From Streptomyces sp. NBC_01788 (lineage in GTDB: Bacteria > Actinomycetota > Actinomycetes > Streptomycetales > Streptomycetaceae): a stretch of DNA of 64,000 nucleotides. Shown piece after piece: positions 51,558-64,000 of the stretch. The stretch lies in assembly GCF_035917575.1 (NCBI RefSeq), contig NZ_CP109090.1, positions 3,100,001 to 3,164,000 of the forward strand, written 5' to 3'. The stretch's first letter is position 1; each line of letters opens with the position of its first letter. The position numbers and the translations under genes were made by a program. Under the pieces are notes generated by a model. That model did not search any database, was not told the origin of the DNA, and saw only the letters and a list, made by a program, of their open reading frames with translations.

Positions 51558-51640
51558 AGCAGGCTCCCGGTGAGGCAGGTGGGCAGGGCGAAACAGCCGA
51601 CACGCTACCGAGACCCCCACAACCGCACCAGCGCGACGCT

Positions 51641-51680
51641 CACGGCTCACCGGCCCCGTGGGCGGGGGCGGTGAGCCGTG
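51641..51680 (-). terminator. Terminator of the MauE/Tat/Cys-rich unit
   Basis: CACGGCTCACCG (51641-51652) pairs perfectly with CGGTGAGCCGTG (51669-51680), 12 bp, 11 nt past the MauE-like gene stop. Confidence 0.85.
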
Positions 51681-51691
51681 GGGGCGGTGCG

Positions 51692-52594
51692 TCAGCCGAG
51701 GGTCGGCAGGGATCTGCGGGGCGGGACCGCGCGCAGCAGAGTCGCTGCCAGTGACTCGCCGGTGTGCGCGTCGATGTAGTTGACGCGGACCGCCGGGTCG
51801 CCAGGGGTGTCCCGGCCGGCCGTGGCGTCCAGGGCGAAGACCACCGACACCGGCCGCGCGTTCTCCCCCGCGCCGTACACACCCGAGTACAGCAGGATCC
51901 GCCAGCCGTCCTCCTCCCAGTGGTCCAGCAGACCCGACCGGACCACCGGGAAGGCGGTCTGCCAGGCGAGGGAGTTCTCCAGCAGTTCCACGCTGGCGGC
52001 GACCGGCACCCGGTCCCCCGGCTCGCTGCCGAAGAGCGGATGCCCGAAGACACGCAGCCTCAGCCGGCGCAGCGGCAGCAGCCACCACCGGTCGAGATCG
52101 ACCGACAGCGCCACCAGGACGGCCGCGGCCAGGGTCACGAACACCACTGAGCCACCGGGCCGTTCGGTGAGCGCGGACCACCAGGAGCCGTGCGCCACCG
52201 CCGCCGTCGCCCCGCCCACGAGCACCAGCGCGGCGCGCGCGAACGCACGCCAGGTGATCGGGGTGTCCTCGTTCGCCGTGCAGCCGCAGGAGGACTCCGG
52301 TGCCAGCGCCCGGCCGTAGCCGAGATAGCCGAGGAACCCCGCCCCGAGGACGGCCGTCGCCGCGCCCGGCACCGGGCTCGTCGGCACGGCCAGCAGCCCT
52401 GCCGCGAGCAGGAGTTCCACGGCGCCGGTGCCGCGCAGCACCACCGCCGCCCGCTCGCTGCTGCGCAGCATCCGGGCCAGCGCCGTCTTCGGTGCCTGGC
52501 GCACGGTGTCCCGGTCGAAGAGCTTGACCGAGCCGGTCCACCCCAGCAGGCCCGCGAGGACCAGCGGTACGAGGCCCGTTGTCAGTGAGAGCAT
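51692..52594 (-). CDS. MauE-like (DoxX/redox-associated) membrane protein
   Basis: A 300-aa protein with about five spans in the first 170 residues. It has the MauE hallmark Cys103-Gly-Cys105 (ESSCGCTAN) after span 3, and the phenylalanine-rich DLDRWW segment after the last span. A soluble C-terminal region of roughly 115 residues follows. MauE is needed for disulfide formation in the cysteine-rich methylamine dehydrogenase light chain. Two gene neighbours upstream code for an exported and a cysteine-rich protein, so a maturation role is plausible. Its ATG 52594 has a GAGAAGGGGAGG site. Confidence 0.82.
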   Translation of the reverse strand: MLSLTTGLVPLVLAGLLGWTGSVKLFDRDTVRQAPKTALARMLRSSERAAVVLRGTGAVELLLAAGLLAVPTSPVPGAATAVLGAGFLGYLGYGRALAPESSCGCTANEDTPITWRAFARAALVLVGGATAAVAHGSWWSALTERPGGSVVFVTLAAAVLVALSVDLDRWWLLPLRRLRLRVFGHPLFGSEPGDRVPVAASVELLENSLAWQTAFPVVRSGLLDHWEEDGWRILLYSGVYGAGENARPVSVVFALDATAGRDTPGDPAVRVNYIDAHTGESLAATLLRAVPPRRSLPTLG

Positions 52595-52636
52595 CCTTCC
52601 CTCCCCTTCTCCTCTTCTCCTCCTCGGATCAGGCCG

Positions 52637-53257
52637 TCAGTGCCCGACGGAGATACGGACGACGTCCACCGAGTTGTCGGACGGCCGCCACGCCCCGAGC
52701 ACCTGGGCGCTCTGCCCGATGCGCAGCCGGGACAGGTCCGAGGTGAGCGCACGGCCCGCGTACGAGGCGTTCGTCGTGTCCTGGTGGACGTGGCCGACGA
52801 GCTCGTGCTGCCCGTGGGAGAGGTGCACCCGGTTCTTCGCGATGCCGCGGATCGTGGTGTCAAGGTTCACGATGTTCACCCACACCGCGTCGGCCGCGAC
52901 GGTGCCGTCCGGCATCGGAACGCCCCGCGCGTACAGTCCGTCGCCGATCTCGATGTCGGCGGCGGTGGTCGGCCGGACCTTCCAGACGCTGGTGACGTTG
53001 GTCATCTGGACCCGGGAGTGGTCTCCGTAGGATCCCGCGACCTCCAGGACGCTGCCGGTGATGCCGGTGATCCGGCCCTCCACGAAGGCCGACTTGGGGA
53101 CCGCCGGGTCGAGCGACGGCTCGGCGGCGAAAGCCGCGTCGGCGTCGAAGCCGCCGAGGGCGGACGCGCCGACGATGGTGGCGCCGCTGAGCGCGGCCGT
53201 GGTGAGGAAGCGCCGGCGGCCCAGGCCGCCGCCGTCGCCCTTCTGACGGTAGGTCAT
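52637..53257 (-). CDS. Tat-exported protein with DUF5666-like domain
   Basis: A 206-aa protein. MTYRQKGDGGGLGRRRFLTTAALSG holds a twin-arginine motif at residues 14-17, and the cleavage site is near AFAAEP (about 43-47). The mature part has repeated small beta-units such as VEGRITGITGSVLEVAG and DIEIGDGLYARGVPMPDGTVAAD, like DUF5666 domains. It starts 13 nt after the Cys-rich gene and 42 nt before the MauE-like gene, all in one direction. It may carry the signal-less Cys-rich protein through the Tat system. Confidence 0.8.
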   Translation of the reverse strand: MTYRQKGDGGGLGRRRFLTTAALSGATIVGASALGGFDADAAFAAEPSLDPAVPKSAFVEGRITGITGSVLEVAGSYGDHSRVQMTNVTSVWKVRPTTAADIEIGDGLYARGVPMPDGTVAADAVWVNIVNLDTTIRGIAKNRVHLSHGQHELVGHVHQDTTNASYAGRALTSDLSRLRIGQSAQVLGAWRPSDNSVDVVRISVGH

Positions 53258-53270
53258 GACGAACTCCCCC

Positions 53271-53693
53271 TCACTCGTAGATGTAGACCGGCAGCTTGCC
53301 GGAGCTGAGATTGCCGATCGCCGAGAAGGCGGCCGGGGTCAGGTCCAGGACGCGGTTGGTGCGGCAGGCGCCGTTGCAGCAGGTGGCCTCGCCGCACCAG
53401 TCCTTGGTGCGCGGTCCGCAGTCGGTGATCGTGATGCAGACGGTGGCGCCGGAGCACTGGTGCCTGATGTTCATCACCGCACCGCAGCCGCGTCTGGGGA
53501 TGTTCTCGCCGCACAGGTCGGGCCGGGTGATGTTCCAGCATGCCTGTGACGCGTTGGGCCAGGCGCCGTGATTCGCGCTGGACTGGCAGTTGCCGCAGGC
53601 GCCGCCGCCCGCGCTGCCGCACGGACCCCAGGAGGATCCGCAACAGAACCAGCTCGTTTCACCGGCCCATAGGCTGGTCGATCCGCAAGCCAT
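53271..53693 (-). CDS. Cys-rich double-psi-beta-barrel protein without signal peptide
   Basis: A 140-aa protein containing 16 cysteines. Start ATG 53693 (MACGSTSLWAG) is preceded by GGGAG with 8-nt spacing; longer in-frame starts at 53726 and 53747 lack one. Residues 85-130 match the RlpA/barwin double-psi barrel: VCITITDCGPR, RVLDLTPAAFSAI, then LSSGKLPVYI. The first 60 residues are Gly/Cys/Trp-rich. There is no signal peptide, so export by riding with the Tat partner next door is my inference. I know of no characterised protein like it. Confidence 0.72.
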   Translation of the reverse strand: MACGSTSLWAGETSWFCCGSSWGPCGSAGGGACGNCQSSANHGAWPNASQACWNITRPDLCGENIPRRGCGAVMNIRHQCSGATVCITITDCGPRTKDWCGEATCCNGACRTNRVLDLTPAAFSAIGNLSSGKLPVYIYE

Positions 53694-53859
53694 CGTGCCG
53701 TCTCCCTTAGTCGCTGAATGACGCATCTCGATTTTTGACGCGTGCATGACAATTTCAGTGCGAGGGTTGTGCGCACAAAGCACCCCCATGATGCGCCCGT
53801 CTACGCGCGTTGGCCAGAGTCCGGCGGCACTCCGACGGCTCCGTGCCCGGCAGAAGAAC

Positions 53860-53890
53860 GGTGCCCCGCGCCCGAAGGACGCGGGGCACC
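53860..53890 (-). terminator. Terminator of the mat operon
   Basis: GGTGCCCCGCG (53860-53870) pairs perfectly with CGCGGGGCACC (53880-53890) with a 9-nt loop, 4 nt past the acyltransferase stop. Confidence 0.85.
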
Positions 53891-53894
53891 CGGC

Positions 53895-55292
53895 TCAGTG
53901 GGCCCTCGCCGCCCGCTTCTTCTTCGCCCCGTTCGGCCACAGCCGCGGCTTGCGCTTCGCCGCCAGGTCCTCGACCCAGCCGACGCCGAGTATCGCGAGC
54001 GCGATCAGCGGCCAGACGAGTACGAACTGCCAGAGGAGCGCCGTCGAGTCCAGCCACGAGGTGGCCGTGTCGCTCTGCATGAAGGGCAGGTCGTAGGCCC
54101 GGTCGAGGATCGGCACCGTCGCCATGATGAGCAGGTTGTGCCAGAGGTAGATCGTCACCGCCCGGTTGTTGGAGAGGGTGATGAGCTTGTCCCACTTGGC
54201 CAGCCGGCCGGGCAGCGTCTGCCACGACGGGGAGTACTGCAACAGGATCACCACGATGCCGAACGACCACGTCGCCTGGGCGAGCGGGATGTCGTTCAGG
54301 TCCCAGCCGTCGGGGCCGAGGTGACCGGACGCCCACCACAGGCCGAACGCCATCAGCGCGGCCGCGCCGGACACCGCCGCGTAGCGCGGGACCTGCTTCA
54401 GCATGCCGTTGTTGTGGGCGAAGCCGAGCACCCAGCAACTGCCGTACACGGCGAAGTCCTCGACCGCGTTGCCGGTCTCGCCGGGGATGGTGACCAGCCC
54501 GGTACCGACCACGGCGGTGAGCGCCAGCGGGAACAGCAGGGTCGCCCACGGCACCCGGCGGAACGCCCACAGCAGCAGCGGGGACGCGACCACGAACCAT
54601 AGATAGGCCCGCAGGTACCAGAGCGGACCCGCCGCCTGGTCCGCCCAGGTGTTCTCCAGCCACCCGGACTCGGAGCCGATGCTCAGGGGGTAGGGCGGGG
54701 CGCCGATCGGCACCAGGTAGTTGAACACGCTGACCGGGCCCCAGAAGTGGCCCCCGAGGTCCGGGTCCTTCCCCGGACTCCAGCCCTGCACGAACAGCAG
54801 GCCGAGCATCAGCGCGCTGAACACCCACAGCGGGGGCAGCAGCCTGCGCACCCTGCTCTTGATCACGGACAGGGCGGGCCGGTTGAGCGAGCGCGCCATG
54901 AGCGAGCCCGCCAGCGCGAACATCACACCCATGGACGGGAAGAGGACCGACAGCCAGGCCCAGCCGAAGAGGTGGTACGCCACCACACGCACCAGGGCGA
55001 TGGAACGCAGCAGGTCCAGATAGCGGTCACGGCCGGGGACCGCCGGCTTCTTCTCCGCCCCGGCCGCGCCGGCCGCGTCGGCCCCACCGGTCGAGTCGGC
55101 GCCGGTGGTGTCCGCCGCAACCGCCCCGTTCACCGCGTCTGCCGTCTTCTGGGCGGGGATACTCACCTCGCCCGCACGGTCGTACGGCCACCCGGTGGGT
55201 GCCGGGGAGCCGTGGACGGGGTCCGGGCCCGGCGTTCCGGGTATGCCCGGCGGCGGCGTGCCGTCCGCCGTCCCGTACTCGTGTGCCGTCAT
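53895..55292 (-). CDS. Membrane acyltransferase 3, third gene of the mat operon
   Basis: A 465-aa protein with about ten spans. After a 90-residue disordered lead, the acyltransferase-3 pattern appears: RDRYLDLLRSIALVRVVAYHLFGW, with the catalytic His as in R-x10-H. It overlaps matB by 4 nt (ATGA), so it is coupled to a poly-GlcNAc synthase. An O-acetyl- or succinyl-transferase for the polymer, analogous to IcaC, is a reasonable guess; export of the polymer is another. The gene ends at a strong terminator. Confidence 0.86.
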   Translation of the reverse strand: MTAHEYGTADGTPPPGIPGTPGPDPVHGSPAPTGWPYDRAGEVSIPAQKTADAVNGAVAADTTGADSTGGADAAGAAGAEKKPAVPGRDRYLDLLRSIALVRVVAYHLFGWAWLSVLFPSMGVMFALAGSLMARSLNRPALSVIKSRVRRLLPPLWVFSALMLGLLFVQGWSPGKDPDLGGHFWGPVSVFNYLVPIGAPPYPLSIGSESGWLENTWADQAAGPLWYLRAYLWFVVASPLLLWAFRRVPWATLLFPLALTAVVGTGLVTIPGETGNAVEDFAVYGSCWVLGFAHNNGMLKQVPRYAAVSGAAALMAFGLWWASGHLGPDGWDLNDIPLAQATWSFGIVVILLQYSPSWQTLPGRLAKWDKLITLSNNRAVTIYLWHNLLIMATVPILDRAYDLPFMQSDTATSWLDSTALLWQFVLVWPLIALAILGVGWVEDLAAKRKPRLWPNGAKKKRAARAH

Positions 55293-57517
55293 CCGACGGG
55301 CCTCCGTTCACTGCCGCTGTCCGCCGTCCGCTGTTGCGGGATCGAGCCCGGCGCCTCCACCACGCCGGTGCGCCGCAGCTTCTGCCAGCGCAGCCGGCCG
55401 CCGGTGAGCGCCGTCATCCAGGACCGGAGCAGGACCACGTACATGAGTTGCCGATAGAGGATCTGCTGGAGCGGCAGCGAGACGAGGTGGCTCATCCGCT
55501 CGCGGTCCAGCCGGAAGGCGTACGCCGCGCAGATCGCCTGCACCGCCAGTACGCCGAGCCAGGCGCCGACGGTCTTCTCCGTGGGCCCGAACACCAGCCC
55601 GTACAGCAGGAAGACGTCGATCAGCGGGGCCAGCAGCGGGGCCACCACCATGAACAGGGAGACGAACGGCAGTCCCACGCGGCCGAAGCGGCCCGAGGGT
55701 CCCCGCTCCACGACGGCCCGGCGGTGCTTCCAGATCGCCTGCATGGTGCCGTACGACCAGCGGTAGCGCTGGGACCACAGCTGCTGCACGGACTCCGGGG
55801 CCTCGGTCCAGGCGCGGGCGTTCTCCGCGTACACCACCCGCCAGCCGTCCCGGTGCAGCGCCATGGTGACGTCGGTGTCCTCGGCGAGCGTGTCCTCGCT
55901 CATGCCTCCGACCCGCTCCAGCGCGGTGCGCCGGAAGGCGCCGACGGCTCCGGGAATGGTCGGCATGCAGCCGAGCATGTCGTACATCCGCCGGTCGAGG
56001 TTGAAGCCCATCACGTACTCGATGTGCTGCCAGGCCCCGATGAGCGAGTCCTTGTTGCCCACCTTGGCGTTGCCGGCGACCGCGCCGACCTTCGGGTCGG
56101 CGAAGGGCTGCACCAGCTCGCGGACGGTGGACGGCTCGAAGACGGTGTCCCCGTCCATCATCACGACGATGTCGTGACGGGCGTTCGCCAGACCGCGGTT
56201 GAGGGCGGCCGGCTTGCCCGCGTTGAGCTGCCGGACGACCCGCACCCCGGGCAGGTCCAGGTCCTCGACGATGCGGGCCGTGCCGTCGCTGGAGCCGTCG
56301 TCGATGACGAGCACCTCGATGGGGTGGTCGCCGACGACGAGGGAACGCACTGTGTTCTCGATGCACTTGGCCTCGTTGTACGCCGGGACCAGGACCGTCA
56401 CCGGCTCGGTGATCGGCCCGTCGGGCCCCCAGCGGAAGTTCTTCCGGCGCACCCGGCGGGCGTGCACGACGGAGAGCAGCAGCATCAGGCCGAAGCGGGC
56501 CAGGACGAGCGAGCCGATGACCGCGAGGCCGACGACCAGCACTCCGGTGATCTCGTCCGATGCCTGCACGAGGAAGACCCACGCCCGGCCCTTCCACAGC
56601 TCCGCGCCGGTGACCGGGGTGTGCGCGCTGGGCGCGCCGAGTGCCTCGGTCAGGTTCTGGAACTTGTAGCCCTTGGCCTGGAGTTCGGGCAGGAGCCGCC
56701 CGAGCGCCTCGACGGTCTGGTGCCGGTCGCCACCGGAGTCGTGCATCAGGACGATGGCGCCGTCGCCGTGCTTCGGGGTGGCGTTGCGGATGATCTCGTC
56801 GACACCCGGCTTCTGCCAGTCCTCGGTGTCGATGTTGTTGAGGACCGTGAGGTATCCGCGGGAGCCGACGTACTGGGTGACCGGCCAGGACGCGTTGTCC
56901 ATCGCGTCGGCGAAGGACGAGTACGGCGGCCGGAACAGCGACGTGCGGATGCCGGCGGCGCCCTCCAGTGCCATCTGGTTCTGGGAGAGCTGCCAGTCGA
57001 TGCCGCTGTGCGACTTGTACGACAGGTCGGGGTGGTTGAAGGTGTGCAGCCCGATCTCGTGGCCCTCGCGCACGATCCGCTTGACCAGGTCCGGGTACTG
57101 CGAGGCCATGGTGCCGGTGATGAAGAACACCGCGTGCGCGTGGTGCTGCTTGAGCACGTCGAGCACCTGCGGGGTCCACTTGGGGTCGGGTCCGTCGTCG
57201 AAGGTGAGGACGACCCGCTGCCTGGGCACGCTCATGCTGGCGGCCTTGCCGCTGCGGGTGTCGATGACCGGGCCGCCCTCGAGGATCTTGTCGGGCACCT
57301 TGTCGGTGGCCGCCTCGGGTCTGATGCGGTAGTCGGCGAGGATCTCGCTGTGCACGTAGCCGCGCAGCATCAGCATCGCGGTCATCGCGACCAGCAGCAT
57401 GACGGGGAGCACCCAGCGCATGGGCAGCCGTCGGCGTCGCAGGTTGACGTGTGCCGGGGCACGCTGGGGTCGCCCGTCGCCTCTGCTGGAGCGGCGACGG
57501 TTGGAACGGGAGGCCAT
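55289..57517 (-). CDS. matB: Bifunctional polysaccharide deacetylase/glycosyltransferase (MatB)
   Basis: A 742-aa two-domain membrane protein. After an N-terminal span (about 32-48), residues 80-275 are a NodB-type deacetylase (VVLTFDDGPDPKWTPQVLDVL, HTFNHPDLS). Then GT2 with VTVLVPAYNEAKCIENTV, VMMDGDTVFEPST, EDTDVTMALHRDGWRV and QRYRWSYG, the QxxRW motif, plus C-terminal spans. This is the MatB architecture known to make the poly-beta-1,6-GlcNAc matrix that clumps mycelia. It overlaps both neighbours, so synthesis, deacetylation and modification genes are coupled. Confidence 0.92.
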   Translation of the reverse strand: MASRSNRRRSSRGDGRPQRAPAHVNLRRRRLPMRWVLPVMLLVAMTAMLMLRGYVHSEILADYRIRPEAATDKVPDKILEGGPVIDTRSGKAASMSVPRQRVVLTFDDGPDPKWTPQVLDVLKQHHAHAVFFITGTMASQYPDLVKRIVREGHEIGLHTFNHPDLSYKSHSGIDWQLSQNQMALEGAAGIRTSLFRPPYSSFADAMDNASWPVTQYVGSRGYLTVLNNIDTEDWQKPGVDEIIRNATPKHGDGAIVLMHDSGGDRHQTVEALGRLLPELQAKGYKFQNLTEALGAPSAHTPVTGAELWKGRAWVFLVQASDEITGVLVVGLAVIGSLVLARFGLMLLLSVVHARRVRRKNFRWGPDGPITEPVTVLVPAYNEAKCIENTVRSLVVGDHPIEVLVIDDGSSDGTARIVEDLDLPGVRVVRQLNAGKPAALNRGLANARHDIVVMMDGDTVFEPSTVRELVQPFADPKVGAVAGNAKVGNKDSLIGAWQHIEYVMGFNLDRRMYDMLGCMPTIPGAVGAFRRTALERVGGMSEDTLAEDTDVTMALHRDGWRVVYAENARAWTEAPESVQQLWSQRYRWSYGTMQAIWKHRRAVVERGPSGRFGRVGLPFVSLFMVVAPLLAPLIDVFLLYGLVFGPTEKTVGAWLGVLAVQAICAAYAFRLDRERMSHLVSLPLQQILYRQLMYVVLLRSWMTALTGGRLRWQKLRRTGVVEAPGSIPQQRTADSGSERRPVG

Positions 57518-61320: not shown

Positions 61321-61473
61321 CCAGGTGTCGGCGTTCACCGCGAAGCGCGGGCTGTCGACGCCGAGCTTGGAATCGCGGACGTGGATGGTGCGGGGGGTGG
61401 CGGCGACTTCGACGCAGGCGCTGCCTTCGGAGTCGCTATAACTCGACTTGAACCATGACAGTTCGTCGCTCAC
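61291..61473 (-). CDS. DUF397 small protein
   Basis: A 60-aa protein with the DUF397 consensus: WFKSSYSDSEGSACVEVA, IHVRDSKLG and FAVNADTWSDFLAYA. These small proteins pair with XRE/DUF5753 regulators in the WhiJ-type systems. It starts at GTG 61473, overlapping the XRE gene stop by 4 nt. Its 3' end overlaps the MFS gene on the other strand by 30 nt. Confidence 0.92.
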   Translation of the reverse strand: MSDELSWFKSSYSDSEGSACVEVAATPRTIHVRDSKLGVDSPRFAVNADTWSDFLAYAAH

Positions 61474-62288
61474 AGCTCCTCCGCCACCTTCCTGGTGAAC
61501 TGGGCAGACTCCTCCACACTAAGCGCCTGCATGCGGATCATGCCATAGCGCTGAGTCAAAGTACTGAGCTTGTTTCCGTCAGAGTAGAGGGCCCCCGTCG
61601 ACTGCCCGTCGACAAAGGCGTAGCGCTCGTGCTCGGCGGTCTCCACCAGCACCATCGGCCCGCTGAGCGCCGCCGTGGGCGCGGTACAGAACGGGAGTAC
61701 CTGGATCGACAGGTGGCGCCGCTTGCCGAGTTCCAGCAGGTACTGGCACTGCTTGCGCATGACGTCCCGGCCGCCGACGACCGAGCGCAACGCGGCCTCG
61801 TGAACCACGAAGCTGAAGTGCGTGGGCGGTTTGCTGGTCAGCTTCTCCTGCCGCTTCAGTCGCGCCGCGACCCGCTCGTCCACCGTCTCCTCGTCCAGAG
61901 GAGGACAGTTGCTGCTGATCAGCGCTCGCGCGTACTCCGGAGTCTGGAGCAGACCGGGAATCAACAGGGGCTCGTACCACTGGACGGTGATCGCCTCGGC
62001 CTCCACCAGCACGTACTGCTGCGTACGTTGGGGGAACGGCTCGGGTTTCAAGAACTCGTGCGCGGCCGACAACTTGCCTCGCGCTCCGCACAGTTGATCC
62101 GCGATCTGCAACAATCTCAGCGTAGGGCGCCGCCGCCCGCACTCCATCGACTTGACGTACTCGTAGTCGTAGCCGGCCTCTTCCGCCAGGGCCTGCCGAG
62201 TGACCTGGGCCTCCTCCCGCCACAACTTGATCTGCCCACCGCAGTAACGCCAGTTCTGCTGCGCCTGCTGGGACTCCCCCGTAGCCAC
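61470..62288 (-). CDS. XRE-family regulator with DUF5753 (WhiJ-like)
   Basis: A 272-aa protein. Residues 18-70 are the HTH (IKLWREEAQVTRQALAEEAGYDYEYVKSMECGRRRPTLRLL, in part). The rest is DUF5753 (ITVQWYEPLLIPGLLQTPEYARALI, DERVAARLKRQEKL). In Streptomyces such genes occur in families with DUF397 and anti-sigma-like ATPase partners that influence development. Here all three are adjacent. Start at GTG/ATG region 62288 follows a divergent ATPase gene by 138 nt. Confidence 0.92.
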   Translation of the reverse strand: MATGESQQAQQNWRYCGGQIKLWREEAQVTRQALAEEAGYDYEYVKSMECGRRRPTLRLLQIADQLCGARGKLSAAHEFLKPEPFPQRTQQYVLVEAEAITVQWYEPLLIPGLLQTPEYARALISSNCPPLDEETVDERVAARLKRQEKLTSKPPTHFSFVVHEAALRSVVGGRDVMRKQCQYLLELGKRRHLSIQVLPFCTAPTAALSGPMVLVETAEHERYAFVDGQSTGALYSDGNKLSTLTQRYGMIRMQALSVEESAQFTRKVAEEL

Positions 62289-63208: not shown

Positions 63209-64000
63209 TCAGGCTGCGAGTTGGTGGCTGAGGCGGGTGAGTCTGCTGGTCCGAGGGCTGAGCGCCGTGTGGCCGGGGTTCCAGTGGGCGTCGAGTCGGA
63301 TGACGTTGAGGGCAGTGGCGGAGAAGGCGTGCTGGAGGCGGACCTTGGGCAGTCCGCGGTAGCGGGCCCGGCGGAGGCCGGTGACGTCGAGGGCCTGGTT
63401 GATGGTGCCCTCGATCCCAGCGCGGAGTGTGTACTTGTCCTTCCAGGTCTTCGTGATCTGCTCAGTTCGCGCTCTGGCCAGGGTCTCGTGGAGTTCTTGC
63501 GGCCGGAGGCTGAGGATGCGGGTGCCACGCGCGGAGGTGGTGCACTCGTCCTGGACGGGGCATGCGTGGCAGTCGGTGGGGGCGAACTGGACGACGATGG
63601 CGTCGCGGCCGTGCTGCCGGACGGGGAACCAGCCGGTGCTGGTGCGGCCCTGCGGGCAGCGGGCCTGGCGGGCCTTCCAATCGATACGGAAGGCGCTCTT
63701 CTGGAAGCCGGCGTCGGCCTTGGCCTGCGGTGAGTGGTCGAGGAGGGCCGGGGTGACCATGGTGATGCCGCGGCCGGCGGCGTCGTGGATCAGGTCGGCG
63801 GACGGGTAGCCGGCGTCGAGGTAGTGCTCGCCCGGCGTGAGGTCGCGGTCGGCGAGGTTTTGCTGGACGGGCCCGGTGGCCTTGACGTCTGGGACGCTTG
63901 CCTCAGTGGTGTAGACGTCCGTGATCAGCCGCAACGGCAGCACTTCGGCTTCGGCTTCGGCTTCGGCTTCGGCTTCGGCTTCGGCTTCGGCTTCGGCTTC
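63209..64000 (-). CDS. IS1182-like transposase, N terminus outside window
   Basis: The visible 264 codons cover the C-terminal DDE part. LPLRLITDVYTTEASVPDVKATGPV, DRDLTPGEHYLDAGYPSADLI, the Cys cluster CPQGRTSTGW with CHACPVQDEC, and RAGIEGTINQALDVTGLRRARYRGLPKV are family features. The frame is open to the edge. Immediately upstream in frame is an (Glu-Ala)n stretch from a GAAGCC repeat, where relatives have a TGYKVHLTET-type segment; this may be an expansion or a disrupted copy. Stop is at 63209. Confidence 0.78.
   Translation of the reverse strand, partial: EAEAEAEAEAEAEAEAEAEVLPLRLITDVYTTEASVPDVKATGPVQQNLADRDLTPGEHYLDAGYPSADLIHDAAGRGITMVTPALLDHSPQAKADAGFQKSAFRIDWKARQARCPQGRTSTGWFPVRQHGRDAIVVQFAPTDCHACPVQDECTTSARGTRILSLRPQELHETLARARTEQITKTWKDKYTLRAGIEGTINQALDVTGLRRARYRGLPKVRLQHAFSATALNVIRLDAHWNPGHTALSPRTSRLTRLSHQLAA
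63943..64000. repeat. Hexanucleotide microsatellite (CTTCGG)n
   Basis: About ten units of CTTCGG run from 63943 to the window edge and continue beyond it. Read on the minus strand they encode alternating Glu-Ala in the transposase frame, so expansion by whole units keeps the frame. Confidence 0.95.

Follow-up and report, generated by a model that had tools for sequence, protein, structure and literature searches.

Organization of the cassette

We analyzed a 64,000-nucleotide stretch of the genome of Streptomyces sp. NBC_01788 (contig NZ_CP109090.1, positions 3,100,001 to 3,164,000; hereafter the window) and a compact cassette of three genes on its minus strand. The genes lie in the order CysR, Tat and MauE, separated by gaps of 13 nt and 42 nt, and encode a cysteine-rich protein designated CysR, a protein with a twin-arginine translocation (Tat) signal, and a membrane protein of the MauE family (Table 1; coordinates are those of the window). 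A preliminary description of this DNA had delimited the same three genes and gaps, and had described their products as a Cys-rich 140-residue protein with a double-psi core and no signal peptide, a Tat-signal protein, and a MauE-like protein with a Cys-Gly-Cys (CGC) sequence. All of these points were borne out in the analyses below. The likeness of the barrel to expansins and loosenins had been missed.

Table 1 Coordinates of the cassette genes and associated features in the window
Feature	Position	Strand	Description
CysR	53271..53693	minus	140 aa, 16 Cys; predicted double-psi beta-barrel, expansin/loosenin-like; no recognizable signal
Tat-signal protein	52637..53257	minus	206 aa; RRRFLT followed by AFA/AE; no Cys in the window protein
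MauE-family membrane protein	51692..52594	minus	300 aa; SSCGC (C103, C105)
Hairpin	51641..51680	minus	directly follows the MauE stop codon; probably closes the unit; lacks a T-run
Intrinsic terminator-like hairpin	53860..53890	minus	T-tailed; follows the acyltransferase gene upstream and bounds the unit on that side
Upstream element TTGTCATGCACGCGTCA / TTGTCATGCAC..GTCA	53736..53752	minus	pair of GTCA half-sites spaced by 11 nt; may belong to an operator or the promoter

Co-occurrence of the three genes

Conserved co-occurrence of the three genes had been set beforehand as a test of the cassette, which would have been refuted had CysR mostly stood without the other two genes; the results did not refute it. 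A scan of a contig collection with CysR returned 52 loci, comprising 48 full-length or nearly full-length loci (L007-L054) and four weak barrel matches (L055-L058). In all 48 of the former, the Tat and MauE genes lie downstream of CysR in one order, the MauE gene of L028 being cut by the contig end; none of the four weak barrel loci has either partner. The median distance from CysR to Tat is 13 nt, and 47 of the 48 loci stay within 40 nt; from Tat to MauE, 41 loci stay within 60 nt, and the widest gap measures 162 nt. Hosts of the cassette include Streptomyces, Actinacidiphila, Streptantibioticus, Peterkaempfera, Amycolatopsis, Actinophytocola, Labedaea, a Candidatus Stackebrandtia, Actinoallomurus, Hamadaea and Catellatospora, and all three genes are also present in Nonomuraea gerenzanensis.

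In a draw of 150 genomes from the genus, separate profile searches for CysR, Tat and MauE, in which part of the candidates were scored per genome, matched the same 12 genomes, including that of the window; the MauE match in G074 runs to the contig end. The Tat profile matched one further genome, G068, at model positions 4-51 (the signal part) only. An order-level search detected CysR in 11 of 293 genomes; the ten loci besides the window encode the Tat protein in ten cases and MauE in nine, the tenth (L074) being short. Across an even draw of the phylum, CysR was found in 1 of 396 genomes. The unit is patchy across genomes and carried by scattered soil actinobacteria, yet its parts go together, and we regard it as almost certain that the three genes form a functional unit.

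Fold and cysteine content of CysR

The window CysR matches the double-psi beta-barrel family DPBB_1 (PF03330) with an E-value of 1.6e-7 and 31.9 bits, above the Pfam gathering threshold of 28.8, and a match at E ≤ 0.1 was obtained for all 42 aligned members. Fourteen of its 16 cysteines are invariant in these sequences (42/42), and the motifs C33-x-x-C36 and CC-x-x-x-C are present. The best AlphaFold2 model has a predicted local distance difference test score (pLDDT) of 83.3, and Foldseek/VIA matches to it were expansin, loosenin and kiwellin. Asp-91 and Asp-117 are invariant (42 aligned sequences for Asp-117), and Asp-117 aligns, at weak E-values of 0.058 and 0.28, with residue 78 of the Clavibacter expansin, which is Asp in entry 4jcw and is replaced by Asn in 4js7, a D78N entry. 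A Ser or Thr precedes the WFCC motif in all 53 CysR sequences, and is equated with expansin Thr12 by motif alone. Judged from the structural model, the barrel is very probably of the expansin type, and CysR is probably a disulfide-rich, polysaccharide-binding protein.

No hydrophobic N-terminus was found within the first 35 residues of CysR across the 48 loci. The 12-residue mean hydropathy in this region was 0.25 to 0.92, compared with the value of at least 1.53 reached by the Tat signals. In 11 of the 48 loci, a stop codon lies fewer than 15 codons upstream. By eye, all four weak DPBB relatives carry an N-terminal hydrophobic or lipoprotein stretch. We consider it likely that CysR ends up outside the cell.

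The Tat-signal and MauE-family proteins

The TatP pattern, as quoted in PMC2758597, was found in 52 of 53 Tat proteins, the remaining one (L045) having a start chosen too far upstream, and an AxA motif lies within residues 29-60 in 50 of 53. The NCBIfam Tat-signal model scores the window protein at 13.0 bits, below the cut-off of 16.7, and the genome has one match to TatC. In the mature part of the Tat protein, matches to S1, cold-shock, CusF and PriB domains occur at two places in the chain, which we take to be tandem oligonucleotide/oligosaccharide-binding (OB) folds; the OB-fold model was made on a relative of the window protein. A weak match to DUF5666 was obtained for 29 of 42 aligned Tat proteins at E ≤ 0.1 (best 5.9e-5), the window protein giving none. 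Members contain zero or one Cys, none of them conserved, so that the protein looks like a carrier or scaffold and not a redox partner.

The MauE protein matches PF07291 with an E-value of 1.2e-12 and 48.6 bits (gathering threshold 27), and is the only match to this family in the genome. The same domain was detected at E ≤ 0.001 in all 41 aligned members (the window and 40 loci), in which C103 and C105 are the sole invariant cysteines (41/41). Some 165 residues of the protein follow the Pfam domain. Among 28 other MauE loci, 23 have a CxC motif in the hit frame; two weak matches (L104, L105) are without it, and three loci (L083, L098, L099) have no clear frame. Other actinobacterial MauE proteins (L077-L102) carry CGCFG, CRCFG or CGCGG motifs, and their neighbors might include further MauE clients.

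The side of the membrane on which the CGC pair lies was predicted from charge. From N- to C-terminus, the mean numbers of Lys plus Arg are 5.7 (loop 1), 0.2, 3.1 (CGC loop), 1.0 and 5.4 (after the last helix), and those of Asp plus Glu in the same stretches are 1.3, 0.3, 2.1, 1.0 and 3.3. By the positive-inside rule, this bias would turn the CGC loop toward the cytoplasm; the prediction is a weak one, because loop boundaries were drawn by eye and some helices were not resolved from one another by hydropathy. A cytoplasmic CGC pair would fit oxidation of CysR before export rather than after.

Proposed model and alternatives

From these results we infer export of CysR, its binding to the Tat protein and its oxidation. 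In the reading that we favor as a whole, with moderate confidence, the cassette would be self-contained: CysR would be co-exported as a Tat hitchhiker and MauE would act as a thiol oxidase, an arrangement that seems to be an undescribed secretion system. CysR would fold in the cytoplasm, bind the Tat-signal OB-fold protein and hitchhike out of the cell on it, in the manner of MelC2 on MelC1; the CGC pair of MauE would make or shuffle the disulfides of CysR; and the exported CysR would be stable, acting non-cuttingly on the cell wall or another polysaccharide. Taken singly, carriage of CysR by the Tat protein appears reasonably likely, and we lean toward MauE as the enzyme that oxidizes CysR. 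That this oxidation takes place on the cytoplasmic face, ahead of export, has a somewhat less than even chance. The preliminary description had likewise proposed Tat-mediated export and MauE-assisted oxidation of the Cys-rich protein. The linkage of the three genes, the lack of a signal on CysR, the conserved TatP pattern and the MelC1/MelC2 precedent speak for that proposal; its order of events may need to be revised, as the charge bias would place the CGC pair on the cytoplasmic side and oxidation possibly before export.

A more specific version of this model, oxidation followed by export, would have a cytoplasm-facing CGC pair build up to seven disulfides in CysR and so license its passage through the Tat channel on the OB-fold carrier; we regard it as rather doubtful. 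According to a passage in PMC6708511, a single-chain variable fragment was not exported by Tat in E. coli without cytoplasmic disulfide formation, a requirement that would give the redox enzyme of the cassette a purpose. If true, this version would amount to nature's own form of the engineered combination of cytoplasmic disulfide formation (CyDisCo) with Tat. How a disulfide-rich cargo passes a fold-proofreading channel is an open question in Tat transport, and the cassette appears to fix cargo, carrier and redox enzyme together, in a unit small enough to be transferred intact to a laboratory Streptomyces. Were the favored reading correct, MauE would also gain a client apart from methylamine dehydrogenase that is simple and testable, and CysR would represent a class of signal-less, expansin-like exported proteins that secretome lists based on signal peptides miss.

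Several observations weigh against co-export with MauE-assisted oxidation. An AlphaFold model of a read-through CysR-Tat fusion, built on a shallow alignment of 42 rows, six of them fused, gave a predicted template modeling score of 0.47 and no confident interface, the mature part of the Tat protein having a pLDDT of about 87-94. An upstream start occurs within 45 codons of CysR in 31 of the 48 loci, and the possible extension is hydrophobic in three of them (L012, L051, L052). The distance correlations of 0.94-0.96 among the three proteins show co-inheritance only, the cysteines of CysR may bind metal, and two VKOR matches in the genome could oxidize exported proteins. A title in the reference list of PMC6708511 reports export without prior disulfides, and a flavin adenine dinucleotide-dependent glucose dehydrogenase (FAD-GDH) complex is described in part of PMC6719666 as secreted without need of disulfides, so a disulfide requirement for Tat export is not universal. 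The role of MauE in disulfide formation is itself presented as speculation in the relevant section of PMC7794033 and serves here as a family precedent only.

The lack of a recognizable signal on CysR and the predicted cytoplasmic position of the CGC pair would also suit a barrel that stays in the cytoplasm and binds a metal or cluster, for which C33-x-x-C36 and CC-x-x-x-C could provide ligands, the Tat and MauE proteins having a different target or exporting only a regulatory partner. We judge this unlikely, as a structure search gave expansins, loosenin and kiwellin, known as extracellular proteins, as its nearest folds, inspection by eye points to export or membrane signals in the four weak DPBB relatives, and CysR is strictly linked to a Tat-signal protein. 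In another reading, CysR would be carried by Tat in the reduced state and oxidized outside by general VKOR/Dsb enzymes, with MauE reducing or isomerizing disulfides or serving the Tat partner. The two VKOR matches, and the resemblance of the CGC motif to disulfide-isomerase mimics, point in this direction; set against the strict linkage of MauE to CysR, its position as sole PF07291 match in the genome, and a Tat protein with no conserved Cys for MauE to serve, they leave this explanation improbable.

By far the least probable alternative is a cluster for a ribosomally synthesized and post-translationally modified peptide (RiPP), with CysR as modified precursor and MauE as modifying enzyme, as decRiPPter proposed in Streptomyces. 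There, in the section of PMC7794033 on these clusters, mauE homologs lie beside predicted precursors with at least eight Cys. The scan described in that section covered products of fewer than 100 aa, as against the 140 aa of CysR, and CysR models as a folded barrel. Peptidase, transporter and regulator genes would also be expected in such a cluster; beyond the three cassette genes, each flanking family was seen in at most 7 of the 49 loci, as judged from flanks of up to 6 kb annotated with a rough gene caller that missed genes.

Boundaries, upstream element and neighboring genes

The preliminary description had placed the unit between two strong terminators. Both hairpins fold strongly: the 69-nt piece 51632-51700, which contains the downstream hairpin, has a fold of -43.8 kcal/mol (z -5.39), and the 51-nt piece 53850-53900 one of -34.9 kcal/mol (z -4.81). 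The upstream hairpin was listed by a terminator scan, which as a whole returned 2 terminator-like sites against 1.6 expected; the downstream one has no T-run and was absent from its list. The same scan gave no sigma-70-like promoter. Since the upstream hairpin lies before CysR and after the acyltransferase gene, the interval 53694-53859 probably serves as the promoter region of the cassette itself.

TGTCATG was found 33-106 nt before CysR in 35 of the 37 upstream regions of Streptomycetaceae type, the window being one of these, and in 0 of 12 upstream regions of other loci; mononucleotide shuffles gave a mean of 0.15. A second GTCA-like half-site follows 11 nt after TGTCATG in 19 to 27 of the 37 regions, depending on the pattern. 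The repeat spacing suggests a regulator site, a possible operator or promoter part; the upstream sequences are related, so the conservation owes part to ancestry.

The acyltransferase gene (53895-55292, minus strand) lies directly upstream of the cassette, and together with a polysaccharide deacetylase/glycosyltransferase family 2 (chitin-synthase-like) fusion occupies 53895-57517 on the minus strand. Both upstream genes are kept beside the cassette in one other locus only (L022). Further away, we noted a helix-turn-helix regulator with DUF5753 at 61470-62288 and a DDE transposase (PF13751/PF01609) at 63209-63943, near the window end. Cassette neighborhoods are mostly unrelated; in the comparison of flanks, the gene caller itself found CysR in 22 loci, Tat in 44 and MauE in 44.

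Comparison with known systems

The combination of MauE, twin-arginine and cysteine-rich was not found in open-licence PMC literature, nor was DoxX with MauE or DUF5666 with Tat. Among the matches listed there for MauE and Streptomyces, PMC7794033 was the one clearly relevant paper by title and start of abstract, and it was reached again among the matches listed for MauE, MauD and disulfide and for MauE, cysteine and actinobacteria. Its main-text section on decRiPPter describes three mauE families with Cys-rich precursors in Streptomyces. As in the cassette, mauE there adjoins a small Cys-rich gene; the precursors differ in being shorter than 100 aa, and no Tat partner is named in that section. 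By the main-text description these families differ from the cassette, although one of them could conceivably be the same.

In methylamine dehydrogenase maturation, as outlined in the same paper, a CxC-containing MauE domain likewise accompanies a Cys-rich protein, whereas the cassette MauE extends about 165 residues past the Pfam domain. Pfam and NCBIfam scans, which included no individual search for MauD or the remaining mau genes, gave no match of CysR to the methylamine dehydrogenase light chain.

With microbial expansins and loosenins, CysR shares the double-psi barrel (the D1 fold of EXLX1) and an Asp at the active-site position (Asp82 of BsEXLX1); judged by motif, its Ser/Thr may correspond to Thr12, the partner of that Asp (passages of PMC9888185). 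CysR differs in lacking a signal peptide and in its 14 invariant Cys. Unlike EXLX1, it consists of one domain, without D2/CBM63, and scores 14.4 bits against a model cut-off of 100; single-domain loosenin and cerato-platanin proteins have their own secretion signal, which CysR lacks in all 48 loci.

Two hitchhiker systems offer parallels in export. In the Burkholderia FAD-GDH, according to a passage in PMC6719666, the small Tat-signal gamma subunit is thought to carry the signal-less alpha subunit, and the complex contains disulfides; the cargo there is a flavoenzyme, and its Tat partner contributes a Cys to the disulfide between the subunits, whereas the cassette Tat protein has no conserved Cys. 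The Streptomyces tyrosinase pair MelC1/MelC2, as described in part of PMC2758597, resembles the cassette in its adjacent genes, a cargo without signal and a Tat-signal partner. That partner acts as copper helper to an enzyme, and its gene precedes that of the cargo, whereas in the cassette the cargo gene comes first, the cargo is a barrel with 14 invariant Cys, and a third gene, for a membrane redox protein, is a fixed part of the unit.
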